Source: Candidatus Gastranaerophilales bacterium (GTDB lineage Bacteria > Cyanobacteriota > Vampirovibrionia > Gastranaerophilales > Gastranaerophilaceae). Taken from it: a stretch of 64,000 nt of DNA. The DNA is taken from assembly GCA_944325005.1 (NCBI GenBank), contig CALUYO010000005.1:62001-126000 (forward strand), read 5' to 3'. The translations under genes were made by a program, and so were the position numbers. Of this stretch, positions 5,322 to 47,459 are shown piece after piece. The notes under the pieces are model-generated. The model was not told where the DNA came from. It did no database searches and saw only the letters and a list, made by a program, of their open reading frames with translations. Position 1 is the stretch's first letter, and each line of letters begins with the position of its first letter.

Positions 5322-6043
5322 TTACCAGGGATAGTCTTTAGTTATTTGCCAGTTATTAAGTTGTAGCAATTTTGCGCAGTATGAGTATGTGGGAGAATTA
5401 TGTCTGCATCCGTAGCGTGTGTTGTTTATTAAATTTTCAGTTGTTCCGTCCCAGCCGGCAGTGTAAGGTTCTACTGATGATTTAATACCGTTTGCATTAC
5501 TTTTATTAAAATTAAAGCTGAATACTTCTCTCTGGCTTTTTGTTATGTTACCAATCTTTGAAGCATTAGGGTAAAAAGCAATATCTATCCCTGCAGATGC
5601 TCGCATTTGTATTGCAGAACCATCTGTGAGGTATACTATTATTGAATTCTGGAGTTCGTCGGTCTGATTGCCGTCATTGTCAATCCTATATGTGCTACTG
5701 TCTGTAATTTTCAATGTATTGATATACTTTGCAAAATATCTATTGAAAAACTCTTCCATTGCATCAGAATCATTATCAACAGGGTAATCCCAAAATTCGT
5801 ATGAACCGTTGTCAACTTCTGACATTATTACGGCCTGATTAATTACAGAATAAAACTTTTTCACCCTGCTTTCTACAACTTTTTTCTGGTGATTAGCAAT
5901 TAATGCAGGCATTGTTAAAGCCGCAACAACACCTATAATCCCGAGTGTAATTAAAACTTCCGCTAAAGTAAAACCTTTAAAACCCTTTATTCCCGTACCT
6001 TTTTCGGGGGGGGGGCGATTTTTAATGCTTGTAAATACATCAT
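5322..6043 (-). CDS. prepilin-like gene 1, phase-variable, out of frame in this sequence
   Basis: This is a type IV pilin or pseudopilin-like protein. From about 5985 down the frame encodes GFTLAEVLITLGIIGVVAAL, the prepilin peptidase recognition and N-terminal helix (G-1, F+1, E+5). A globular domain follows, ending in NNWQITKDYPW like gene 2. No start codon exists in the frame of the core. The only ribosome-binding site (AGGAGG, 6049-6054) precedes ATGATG at 6038-6043, whose frame enters a run of ten C and stops soon after (leader MMYLQALKIAPPP, then a stop). The span is 722 bases, so one extra C would give an open 240-residue protein. I read it as an intact gene in the OFF phase; a sequencing miscount of the run is the main alternative. 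Confidence 0.85.
6006..6015. repeat. homopolymer run of 10 G (C10 in the coding strand) in prepilin gene 1
   Basis: Ten consecutive G on the plus strand, 28 bases inside the start ATG at 6043 and just before the prepilin core. A run of 11 (or 8) would fuse the leader to the FTLAEVL frame; the ten present do not. Long G/C runs are classic slipped-strand mispairing sites. Confidence 0.9.
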
Positions 6044-6112: not shown

Positions 6113-6934
6113 TTACCACGGGTAGTCTTTTTCTATTTGCCATCCATCCATCATAATTAATGCCGCACACCAGAAGCCATCACGATCTTTGCTGCATCCG
6201 CGACCGTTTCCGTCTCTGATATAATCCCTGTCATACCCATGCTCACCTTCTACGGCATTTGTAATCCCTATGCCGGCAGGGACAAATTTTTTATCATGTT
6301 GCATTGTGAAGGCAAAAACATCCCGGCCGTATTTGTTAGGAAGCCTAAAACCGTTTAAATCTACTATAACATTCATAGCAGGTCTGTTTGTCCCTGCTTC
6401 TGCAATATAATCTGTTGCTATAATCATAGTACCATCGGCAAGTACAAATTTGGGGTTATTAACCAAATCGCCGTATGAATTACAACTGTTCCCTTTTGCA
6501 CATAAATATGTAATATCTGTTGGAAATTCTCCGACTTCGTATGTTTCAACTACCTGTAAATAGGGCTTAAGATACTGGTTAAAGAATACAATTGTTTCTT
6601 TATTTTTTCCGAAATCCCAATATTCTATAGGTCCAAAATCTTCTTCTGCGCGGGTTATTGCCTGGCTCATCACAGAATAAAACTTCTTTAATTTGGTAAC
6701 GGTTTCCTGTTTTTGATATTTTGCAATCAGTGCAGGCATTGTTAAAGCTGCAACTATACCTATAATTCCGAGTGTAATTAAAACTTCTGCCAGTGTAAAG
6801 CCATTTGAATAATTGTGATGTTTCATATCACTATTATGGCATATTTTTTTAAAAAAGTAAAGCGTTATGCCTAAAATGCTTATTATATTTGCGTTTCGGG
6901 GGGGGGGCAGTCTTAAAGCATCTCTATTAAACAT
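6113..6934 (-). CDS. prepilin-like gene 2, reads through its C10 run (ON), with an alternative internal start
   Basis: Type IV pilin-like protein. With ten C the frame from the ATG at 6934 (SD AGGAGG) is open: MFNRDALRLPPPRN, a spacer, then NGFTLAEVLITLGIIGIVAAL and a globular domain ending GWQIEKDYPW. The leader before the processing site would be unusually long (about 45 residues) and partly hydrophobic. A second ATG at 6826 (MKHHNYSNG, then FTLAEVL) gives a more normal 9-residue leader and has its own leaderless promoter, so it may be the main start. The C-terminus resembles gene 1, so the two adjacent genes look like a diverged tandem pair. It may encode a pilus subunit or minor pilin assembled by the machinery that PilT (36.5 kb) retracts. 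Confidence 0.88.
   Translation of the reverse strand: MFNRDALRLPPPRNANIISILGITLYFFKKICHNSDMKHHNYSNGFTLAEVLITLGIIGIVAALTMPALIAKYQKQETVTKLKKFYSVMSQAITRAEEDFGPIEYWDFGKNKETIVFFNQYLKPYLQVVETYEVGEFPTDITYLCAKGNSCNSYGDLVNNPKFVLADGTMIIATDYIAEAGTNRPAMNVIVDLNGFRLPNKYGRDVFAFTMQHDKKFVPAGIGITNAVEGEHGYDRDYIRDGNGRGCSKDRDGFWCAALIMMDGWQIEKDYPW
6833..6861 (-). promoter_or_regulatory. internal leaderless promoter of prepilin gene 2
   Basis: The minus strand reads TTTACT, 17 bases, CATAAT, then exactly six bases (AGTGAT) before the ATG at 6826. The spacing predicts a transcript beginning at or next to the start codon. It lies between the C10 run and the prepilin core, so it would bypass the run. Confidence 0.6.
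6898..6907. repeat. homopolymer run of 10 G (C10 coding) in prepilin gene 2
   Basis: Ten G located 27 bases inside the ATG at 6934. Here ten is the in-frame length. The flanking leader bases (6908-6940) are almost identical to those of gene 6 (55248-55280). Confidence 0.9.
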
Positions 6935-21173: not shown

Positions 21174-21233
21174 CTTTTTTAACCTCTTTTCCTCATTATA
21201 ACCTAAAAATTTTATTTGGGTTATAATTGTTTT

Positions 21234-23890: not shown

Positions 23891-24615
23891 TAACATCTCA
23901 TTAGGTGTTTTTCCGCCTTCTTCTACCAGTGAGCATACCTGTTGCATCTTAAAGATGCCCGGTTGGTTCTCAGCAAGTGCAAAAGAAAAAATATCATATC
24001 CCCATTTATTTGGTCCCTTTTTCCCATTTATGTCCAATGCAAAGACCCCAGCATAACTATTTATTTCAGGTCGTGGAATACTATATGTAAATATTATTGT
24101 GCCGTCATTAAGAACGAATGCCCAATTTCTGTTGAGTATGTTGTTTTGTCTGTAGCCGCTGCAGCCGGTTATTGAAGAAGTATCTTCATATTTTTTTATT
24201 GTATCAACTCCCTGATATTTCGGAACACAGTTGTCATCATAGGCGTTCCCCTTACAAGTTTTAATTACATTCATCTCTCTGGTAAGTTTGTCATAAAATT
24301 CTTCGCATTGAGAAAAATCAGCCTGAACCCCATCATTATTTGCAATTACACTGTTTGAATAATAACACAAAGGTATTGCACCTTCTTTAACTTCTAACAA
24401 CCTTATAGCATTATAAATATTAGAATAAGCTCTTTTAAATTGTGATTCAAGAGCTTTTTCTCTATACTTTGCAATCAAAGACGGCATGGTAAGAGCCGCA
24501 ACTATACCAATAATCCCAAGCGTAATTAAAACCTCTGCAAGAGTAAATGCTCTAACCTCTTCTCCCGTCGTTAGTTTTTCGGGGGGGGGGCAACTCTCAG
24601 CTCGCTTATATCCAT
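23873..24615 (-). CDS. prepilin-like gene 3, phase-variable, out of frame in this sequence
   Basis: A type IV pilin-like protein. The core frame encodes RAFTLAEVLITLGIIGIVAAL then MPSLIAKYREKALESQ, a globular domain with several cysteines, LDINGKKGPNKWGYDIFSFA, and the end CSLVEEGGKTPNEMLSNIDD. The core has no start codon of its own. The ribosome-binding site AGGAGG precedes ATG 24615 (leader MDISELRVAPPP), which enters a C10 run and stops two codons later. The span is 743 bases, so one added C would open 247 residues. The closest relative in the window is the pilin-like gene at 18.1 kb. The processing site has Ala at -1 instead of Gly. Confidence 0.85.
24581..24590. repeat. homopolymer run of 10 G (C10 coding) in prepilin gene 3
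   Basis: Ten G, 25 bases inside the ATG at 24615. Ten gives a stop (MDISELRVAPPPKN, then TAA); eleven or eight would join the leader to FTLAEVL. Confidence 0.9.
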
Positions 24616-38399: not shown

Positions 38400-39161
38400 T
38401 TACTTGCATTTTGTTTTGCCTTCCCAGGAAAGATCATTACATTTTAAATAATCCATGTTTTCGTTGTATAAAACCCATGCAGTGCAACCGTACATATTAG
38501 AATTGCTAAATCCCGGGTATGGTTTGTCAATTGTTTTATTGCATGCTTGTTCAAATTCATACATACTTTCTTTTATCCCTGATGGTACTATGGCATCTTT
38601 GGTCAGGAAAAAACTGAACCTGTCCCTTCCATTCTCATTCGGGAGTTTATGTCCGTTGAGGTCAACTGATATTGCTCCGCAGACATGCTGTAATGCATTT
38701 TTTTTATTCCCTTTACTATAATTGAAACTACATTCTCCTGTATATGTTCTAAATGTTACTCTAGTTCCGTCTGACAAAATAACACTTCTTGCGATATTTT
38801 TATTAGTCAATTCTACTGGAGGAACACACACTTCTTTAATTGTACTTACATCCATATCTATACAATTTTGAGACAGCTGCATATGTTTTGCCATGTTTGT
38901 TGCAAAAATGAAATGACTATTTTCATCATACATTTCCCCCATTCCCCACTCATCAGGAGTTCCGTTTTCGGATACTGCCATAATAAATGCCTGGCTAATT
39001 GTAGAATAAACTTTTTTAAGCTGCGCAACTCTTTCTTTGTTTTGTTTGTCACTAATAAGTGACGGCATAGTCATGGCTGCAACCACTCCAATAATCCCAA
39101 GTGTGATTAGCACTTCAGCTAAAGTAAAAGCGTCAAAATGTTTTGGTTTTATGTGATGCAT
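38400..39161 (-). CDS. prepilin-like gene 4 with internal leaderless start; upstream phase-variable leader out of frame
   Basis: A type IV pilin-like protein. From ATG 39161: MHHIKPKHFDAFTLAEVLIT, the hydrophobic helix, and a globular domain with cysteines ending NENMDYLKCNDLSWEGKTKC. It is closely similar to gene 5 at 46.6 kb throughout. The ATG at 39161 has a perfect leaderless promoter. Upstream, a second start (ATG 39292, SD AGGAGG, leader MLSTKAFKIAPPP) enters a C10 run and stops. The span 38400-39292 is 893 bases, so one added C would fuse this leader in frame to the pilin through a 30-residue spacer. The gene can therefore be made with or without the switch. Confidence 0.88.
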   Translation of the reverse strand: MHHIKPKHFDAFTLAEVLITLGIIGVVAAMTMPSLISDKQNKERVAQLKKVYSTISQAFIMAVSENGTPDEWGMGEMYDENSHFIFATNMAKHMQLSQNCIDMDVSTIKEVCVPPVELTNKNIARSVILSDGTRVTFRTYTGECSFNYSKGNKKNALQHVCGAISVDLNGHKLPNENGRDRFSFFLTKDAIVPSGIKESMYEFEQACNKTIDKPYPGFSNSNMYGCTAWVLYNENMDYLKCNDLSWEGKTKCK

Positions 39162-39167
39162 AACATC

Positions 39168-39196
39168 ATTATAAAATATTATAAAATGTTTGTAAA
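39168..39196 (-). promoter_or_regulatory. internal leaderless promoter of prepilin gene 4
   Basis: The minus strand reads TTTACA, 17 bases, TATAAT, six bases (GATGTT), then ATG 39161. Prepilin gene 2 has the same geometry. Confidence 0.7.
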
Positions 39197-39254
39197 GTAT
39201 ACAATCACAATATTTAAGTAATCGCCTGTGATACTTTAATGACCGGTATTTCGC

Positions 39255-39264
39255 GGGGGGGGGG
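39255..39264. repeat. homopolymer run of 10 G (C10 coding) upstream of prepilin gene 4
   Basis: Ten G, 28 bases inside the leader ATG at 39292. With ten C the leader ends MLSTKAFKIAPPPRNTGH, then a stop. With eleven it runs into the prepilin frame. Confidence 0.9.
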
Positions 39265-39314
39265 CGATTTTAAAAGCTTTAGTACTCAGCATTTTCAACC
39301 TCCTGACTTTTTTT

Positions 39315-39343
39315 ATTATTTACTATAGTTTATAATTTGTCAA
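39315..39343 (-). promoter_or_regulatory. promoter of the prepilin gene 4 leader
   Basis: TTGACA, 17-base spacer ending ATAGTA, AATAAT on the minus strand, followed by AGGAGG and ATG 39292. Confidence 0.8.
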
Positions 39344-46629: not shown

Positions 46630-47459
46630 TTATTTACATTTAGTTTTACCTTTCCATGTTAAATCATCACATTTTAAATAGTCCATATTTTCGTTATATA
46701 GAACCCAGGCTGTGCACGCATACATATTTTTATCACTAAAACCGGGATAGGGGGTGTCGATTTTTCTATTACAAGCTCTTTCAAACTCGTGTGTATCTCC
46801 TTGTATTCCAAAGGGAACTAAAGCATCTCGCGTGACATAGAAACTGAATCGATCTCTGCCATTCTTGTTAGGCAGTCTGTTTCCGTTTAGGTCAACAGAA
46901 ATCGAGCCGCATGCATGTTGTAGTGGGGTACTATTTCCTTCTCTGCTATAATTCCCGTTACATTGACCACTCCAGACTCTGAAACTTACCCTGGTCCCGT
47001 CCAATAAAATAACACTTCTAGAGAATTGTTTTCCGCTAATATCTGGCGGCGGGTTACATACTTTTTCAACAGTACTATCGTCCATATCAATACAATTATG
47101 CGACAACTTCATGTATTTAGCAATATTCTTTGCCATGATGTAATGCGAGTTTTCATCATACATTCCACCCATCCCCCATTCATCAGGGGTTCCGTTTTCT
47201 GAAACAGCCATAATAAATGCCTGGCTAACTGTAGAATAAACTTTTTTAAGCTGCGCAACTCTTTCTTTATCCTGTTTATCACTAATAAGTGCAGGCATGG
47301 TCATAGCTGCAATAACCCCGATAATACCAAGTGTGATTAAGACTTCAGCAAGCGTAAAACCATATGACGAATTTTTAAAACGACAGAAATACCTTATAAT
47401 GTAGACTAAATAAGGTTCTCGCGGGGGGGGGGCACTCTGAATGCTTCTTGTTTAAACAT
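46630..47459 (-). CDS. prepilin-like gene 5, phase-variable, out of frame in this sequence
   Basis: A type IV pilin-like protein. The core frame encodes SSYGFTLAEVLITLGIIGVI then MPALISDKQDKERVAQLKKV and a domain nearly the same as gene 4, ending NENMDYLKCDDLTWKGKTKC. No start codon exists in that frame before the core. The ribosome-binding site AGGAG precedes ATG 47459 (leader MFKQEAFRVPPP), which after ten C reads RENLI and stops. The span is 830 bases, so one added C opens 276 residues. Unlike gene 4 it has no internal start, so its expression would depend wholly on the run. Confidence 0.87.
47423..47432. repeat. homopolymer run of 10 G (C10 coding) in prepilin gene 5
   Basis: Ten G, 27 bases inside the ATG at 47459. 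Ten is out of frame with the prepilin core; eleven or eight is in frame. Confidence 0.9.

Follow-up and report, generated by a model that had tools for sequence, protein, structure and literature searches.

Neisseria carries a poly-G tract in pilC, and its pilE varies by recombination with silent copies. In Campylobacter jejuni, 28-29 poly-G/poly-C loci with lengths of about 8-12 are set ON or OFF by length modulo 3 (PMC4965091). The nearest described mechanism is that of the sortase pilus clusters bbr_0113 and bbr_1889 of Bifidobacterium breve UCC2003, in which a G-tract within the gene splits the pilin ORF into two frames, most cells are out of frame, a one-base change fuses the ORFs, and in-frame forms are enriched in mice (PMC9187656). 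A literature search on phase variation in Gastranaerophilales and Vampirovibrionia found no description. The prepilins analysed here resemble the Neisseria system in combining type IV pilus proteins with poly-G tracts, but differ from it in that every prepilin is equipped with a tract and a start of its own. An intragenic tract splitting a pilin ORF, a predominantly out-of-frame state (predicted here), fusion by one base and a gut commensal host are shared with B. breve; its two sortase-dependent pilus operons stand against some 87 type IV prepilins here, and the available part of that report notes neither a replication-locked orientation nor a second promoter, both of which are suggested here (PMC9187656). 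Tens of G/C tracts in reading frames, their lengths and ON/OFF switching by length modulo 3 are common to C. jejuni as well but, unlike its 28-29 loci, 87 of 99 tracts here belong to a single gene family, in which the ON length hardly varies (PMC4965091). The present system is thus set apart by its one-family scale, its nearly uniform ON length, a strand rule and a subset of genes with a second promoter-like start (P2).

The window, i.e., the whole 64-kb stretch of DNA analysed, comes from a Candidatus Gastranaerophilales gut bacterium, whose genome (G000) comprises 2.0 Mb in 27 contigs. We consider it about 75% probable that some 87 prepilins of this genome are frame-switched by a G/C run and OFF by default, and that gene 4 of the window belongs to a subset with a P2 leader. 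The elements of the gene 4 locus, read directly from the sequence unless another basis is given, are as follows:

39338..39343, minus strand: -35 element TTGACA of the cassette promoter (P1)
39315..39320, minus strand: -10 element AATAAT of P1, spacer 17
39299..39304, minus strand: Shine-Dalgarno sequence AGGAGG of the switchable ORF
39290..39292, minus strand: distal ATG, start of the switchable ORF (frame computation)
39265..39280, minus strand: conserved tract flank AAAGCTTTTAAAATCG before the C10 run (flank alignment)
39255..39264, minus strand: C10 tract, the frame switch (tract and frame analysis)
39191..39196, minus strand: -35 element TTTACA of P2
39168..39173, minus strand: -10 element TATAAT of P2, spacer 17
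39154..39168, minus strand: operator-like dyad TGATG-TTATG-CATCA, covering +1 and the start codon
38400..39161, minus strand: gene 4, a prepilin of 253 aa from the proximal ATG (ORF and profile matches)

The order is P1, AGGAGG, ATG 39292, flank, C10, P2, ATG 39161 and the pilin motif AFTLAEVLITLG, with GATGTT as the 6 nt between the P2 TATAAT and ATG 39161. The original prediction had placed TTTACA-17-TATAAT six bases before this ATG, 3' of the C10 run and the cassette promoter, and was right in both coordinates and geometry. No promoter-like site within 800 bp scores better than P1 and P2, each with 11 of 12 matches; the region holds 15 such sites compared to 4.0 +/- 1.9 in shuffled sequence. 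The gene 4 protein carries the cleavage/methylation motif (A)FTLAEVLITLGIIGV; it scores 21.7 bits against PF07963 (N_methyl; cut-off 21.2) and exceeds the cut-off of TIGR02532. Genes 4 and 5 both have this motif with a hydrophobic helix and pass both profiles. Gene 4 is therefore predicted to encode a type IV prepilin-like protein, which would be processed by prepilin peptidase and assembled into a fibre.

With C10, the ORF from ATG 39292 stops after 18 codons, while C11 (297 codons) or C8 (296 codons) produces an in-frame fusion to the prepilin. Since the run is part of an ORF that starts at ATG 39292 behind a good Shine-Dalgarno sequence, a feature absent from the original prediction, the switch works on the reading frame; a promoter-spacing switch was rejected because the run is 3' of P1 and within the ORF. 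The upstream start had been predicted to be switchable: it exists, and it acts by frame (10 out, 11 in) rather than via its promoter. The other tract prepilins of the window were located as follows, by frame computation except for the P2 variant, which was read from the sequence:

6006..6015, minus strand: C10 of prepilin gene 1 (ATG 6043), needs C11
6898..6907, minus strand: C10 of the other dual-start gene (ATG 6934), in frame already at C10
ATG 6826-6824, dyad 6815-6831, minus strand: P2 variant TTTACT-17-CATAAT-6-ATG of the other dual-start gene
24581..24590, minus strand: C10 of prepilin gene 3 (ATG 24615), needs C11
47423..47432, minus strand: C10 of gene 5 (ATG 47459, body 46630-47373), opened by C11
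55238..55247, minus strand: C10 of prepilin gene 6 (ATG 55274), needs C11

Five of the six window cassettes are thus closed at C10 and open at C11, the exception being the cassette at 6898-6907, which is open at C10. Gene 5 lacks an in-frame ATG in the stretch from the run to the pilin motif, its first start in the ORF list lying inside the hydrophobic segment, so that it should be made through the tract only; we confirmed in this respect that its sole start is the switchable one. Where the tract is ignored, annotation will assign wrong starts to tract prepilins, and pilins such as gene 5 will lose their N-terminal motif. Genes 4 and 5 share the cassette of P1, Shine-Dalgarno sequence and tract, and their bodies are common from the motif onward (73% protein identity), whereas the stretch from tract to motif is unrelated.

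Across G000, 95 prepilin-motif matches and 99 distinct G/C tracts of at least 8 were found, 88 of the tracts being exactly 10 long; 87 of the 99 open into a prepilin frame, and no open prepilin frame follows the remaining 12. The roughly 87 prepilins share a 5' switch made of P1, a Shine-Dalgarno sequence, an ATG, 7-10 codons and the G/C run. The distance from ATG to tract ranges roughly from 19 to 36 nt, the frame behind the tract shifting along with it, so this is not one frozen sequence. After removal of duplicates, 72 of 78 scorable prepilins with a tract of 10 need one additional base, two are ON and four need one base less, while five of six with a tract of 11 are ON. Before duplicate removal, 73 of 80 with length 10 needed +1, compared to an expected one third (p ~3e-27). 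The tract prepilins of relatives behave alike (length 10 needing +1, 97/102; length 11 ON, 13/16; length 9 needing -1, 18/22). Neither ATG, GTG nor TTG occurs between tract and motif in 64 of the 87 own tract prepilins, whose translation must therefore cross the tract. Overall, the pattern fits translational phase variation with OFF as the probable default. The same kind of G10 tract was also seen inside a gene for a GT-D fold glycosyltransferase (PF08759, E 1e-19) at about G000:C5:42579-42588, so the switch is not limited to prepilins.

Tract lengths were taken from assemblies, seemingly short-read MAGs in which some contigs end at tracts, and the counts summed over genomes G000-G023 of the genus are 1033 for length 10 (~89%), 70 for length 11 and 62 for length 9. 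A single genome of the genus holds up to 165 C10 tracts. C10 was absent from 15 examined genomes of other genera in the order. From the sharp modal length we infer that ten is a mutational equilibrium and that the genes are tuned one base off. In a second clade, made up of Candidatus Scatousia excrementigallinarum and two other genomes (G044-G046), the sense-G tracts measure 11 or 12, and most of them leave the frame closed by a single base of opposite sign; their orientation is not blockwise but mixed within contigs (G044 and G045, loci L294-L323). As in contingency genes, an in-frame repeat sets ON or OFF by its length, and near-identical alleles differ in repeat length, albeit in few pairs. 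The loci L378 and L379 are 99.7% identical over 1365 bp with 3 SNPs and a sole indel, C10/C11, corresponding to OFF/ON, although they lie in bins of different species and one contig may therefore be misbinned. Further close paralogue pairs are one base apart (L065/L066, G11/G10; L431/L432, C10/C9), and G001 and G003, compared with a view to estimating slippage, share only one near-identical tract. Several contigs of G000 (C2, C5, C6, C10, C12 and C21) have an end no more than about 250 bp away from a tract, and the tract cassettes thus seem to break assembly. It is very improbable that the assemblies under-call a true length of 11 by one base and that all genes are ON. Homopolymers are error-prone, annotated G-tract lengths can be wrong, and in B. 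breve the G-tract annotation differed from the population; the same study gives correct reads of synthetic G11/C11 tracts about 94-97% of the time (PMC9187656). C9, C10 and C11 moreover occur together in single assemblies, and the second clade is off in the opposite direction, both of which argue against under-calling.

The tract carries its G on the leading strand, as judged by GC skew, whatever the gene direction, and the flank before C10 (consensus AGC-nn-T-n-AAR-n-Y-G) is common to sense-C and sense-G genes in the same DNA orientation. Because tract orientation is fixed, genes of one strand read it as glycine and those of the other as proline. Among the tracts listed for G000, sign changes occur only on contigs C2 (109-129 kb) and C10 (30-55 kb); two were found among those listed for G041; and among the contigs listed for G042, three are uniform (C1, 45/45; C2, 15/15; C4, 9/9) and contig C3 has one switch. 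Large-scale GC skew places the tract G on the G-rich strand (+0.062 in the window, +0.087 at 36-55 kb of contig C10 of G000), and the skew of contig C7 is negative where tracts read C; it is near zero in some stretches, where the link to the leading strand is weak. No replication origin was found via a DnaA signature in the sequence stretches examined. Taken together, it is strongly suggested that replication sets tract orientation, which in turn suggests that orientation matters for how the element slips. Tentatively, and with the odds against it, the tract and its oriented flank (AGC-nn-T-n-AAR-n-Y-G-C10-G, G-run leading) may together be a dedicated replication-coupled slippage element, whose orientation and flank would set the length of ten and the switching rate, and which prepilins of either direction would host as Gly (co-directional) or Pro (head-on), so that repertoires ranging from tens of genes to well above a hundred are kept exactly one base away from ON.

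An alternative explanation is programmed slippage at the RNA level, either by +1 stuttering of RNA polymerase or by a -1 shift of the ribosome on G10/C10, giving a fixed product fraction per gene with ten kept as the slippery length. This would account for a length held tightly at 10 (~89%) even though it closes the frame, something hardly expected of a tract that is free to drift. We nevertheless regard it as unlikely: near-identical alleles differ in the length of the DNA itself, which favours replication slippage; sense-G and sense-C tracts are both used, the choice following the chromosome strand rather than the mRNA; the second clade holds 11 or 12 and would need the opposite shift; and the glycosyltransferase gene has the same kind of tract. 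Under phase variation by replication slippage, the run, which by its sequence nearly always has ten bases and closes the pilin frame by one base that an eleventh restores, would slip between 10 and 11 and turn on single pilins in a few per cent of cells or lineages, the whole pilin repertoire being OFF by default. A single uncultured gut genus seems to possess an unusually large phase-variable repertoire within one gene family, with OFF as its uniform default. The link between orientation and replication makes it testable in general whether leading or lagging placement sets how homopolymers slip and the length at which they equilibrate.

Of the 87 own tract prepilins, at least 15 have a long leader that includes a promoter-like P2, and so do 16 among the relatives examined, sister species included. 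In 34 distinct modules, the -35 element stands at exactly 17 nt in 12/12 sense-C and at 16 nt in 20/22 sense-G modules, other spacings accounting for 0-4. The -35/-10 hexamers at 16-18 nt agree with sigma-70, as a match of sequence and not of activity. An ATG follows 6 or 9 nt past the -10 element in 15 modules (one of them with a Shine-Dalgarno start as well), a Shine-Dalgarno sequence with ATG at 36-39 nt in 11, no in-frame start in six, and another arrangement in two. ATG 39161, at 6 nt from the -10 element and with no Shine-Dalgarno sequence, has leaderless geometry, and a leaderless mRNA is predicted from the P2 of gene 4. On the plus strand of the window, the non-pilin ORFs at 21222 and 55400 (MNIINRLKGKVIVSCQAMPS, MECPKCGLEIDDKAMVCPNC) also have a start 6/7 nt after a TATAAT and no Shine-Dalgarno sequence, suggesting that leaderless starts occur in this organism.

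Promoter-like sequence is easily met in such leaders: when the gene 4 leader is recoded synonymously, 47% of the versions likewise reach a promoter score, and 31 promoter-like leaders were seen compared to ~22 predicted by synonymous recoding. The P2 of gene 4 alone is thus not improbable, so that the case rests on the recurrence of the module, whose conservation is not purely promoter evidence because the leaders are related by descent and coding. That P1 alone is used, the TATAAT before ATG 39161 being a coding accident of an AT-rich leader, would agree with these recodings and with the six modules that have no start codon; it is rather unlikely given that 34 modules from several species keep the -35 element at a fixed 17 or 16 nt, that a Shine-Dalgarno sequence and ATG come after P2 in 11 of them, and that two further window ORFs have TATAAT-6/7-ATG starts.

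Directly after the P2 -10 element lies a dyad of the family form GTGAT-N7-ATCAC, with only two exact matches in 464 kb, both in P2-type prepilin leaders. The dyad covers +1 and the start codon and six of the 34 modules are without an in-frame start, so a constitutive P2 is unsupported; this suggests a regulated rather than a constitutive promoter, with a putative operator. Two of the six window genes had been described as combining a switchable and a constitutive-type start with the same geometry: the two starts hold (ATG 6826-6824 and ATG 39161), and the constitutive character does not. A dispersed mobile repeat was considered for P2 and rejected, as the dyad search matched prepilin leaders and a few near-chance sites, and so was a general regulon, the exact dyads in 464 kb being confined to two such leaders. 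We also weighed whether P2 and its dyad form a DNA element at which recombination or an exchange of leaders takes place, with arms round a 7-nt core and an incidental likeness to promoters. Dyad arms reach ~12 bp around this core in some copies and leaders are exchanged between tract and motif, but homology breaks at the tract and the pilin motif and not at the dyad, making this improbable.

The closest homologues of the gene 4 body in other species (L349/L259, L350/L260 and L348) have the C10 tract and no P2-ATG. Together with the unrelated stretches of genes 4 and 5 between the shared cassette and the shared body, this indicates that P2 belongs to an exchangeable leader and not to a pilin type, leaving unproven the original prediction of a constant subunit and a switched copy. 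For gene 4 we favour a regulated second start in this leader: P2, just before an in-frame ATG, is expected to give a tract-independent leaderless transcript, and the dyad over its start would make its use regulated. The prepilin peptidase should cut off the leader, so both starts would yield an identical mature pilin. The P2 subset may illustrate how some pilins could escape the lottery.

Ahead of the genuine FTLAEVLIT motif, some leaders of the sister species (among loci L354, L369, L372 and L235) have an additional FTLAEG(A)THV-like stretch; others of this set are filled with palindromic repeat-like sequence (KMLKQVQHD) with the frame kept, as if the cleaved leader tolerated insertions. The prepilin L142 (G000:C8:73784) has a broken tract (G7-A-G) in a cassette otherwise of the sense-G type, and is possibly a locked, decayed switch. 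In many sense-G genes, e.g., L006 and L046, the Shine-Dalgarno sequence AAAGGAGC is complementary to AGCTCCT right after G10, a possible hairpin that would hide the ribosome site in sense-G cassettes.
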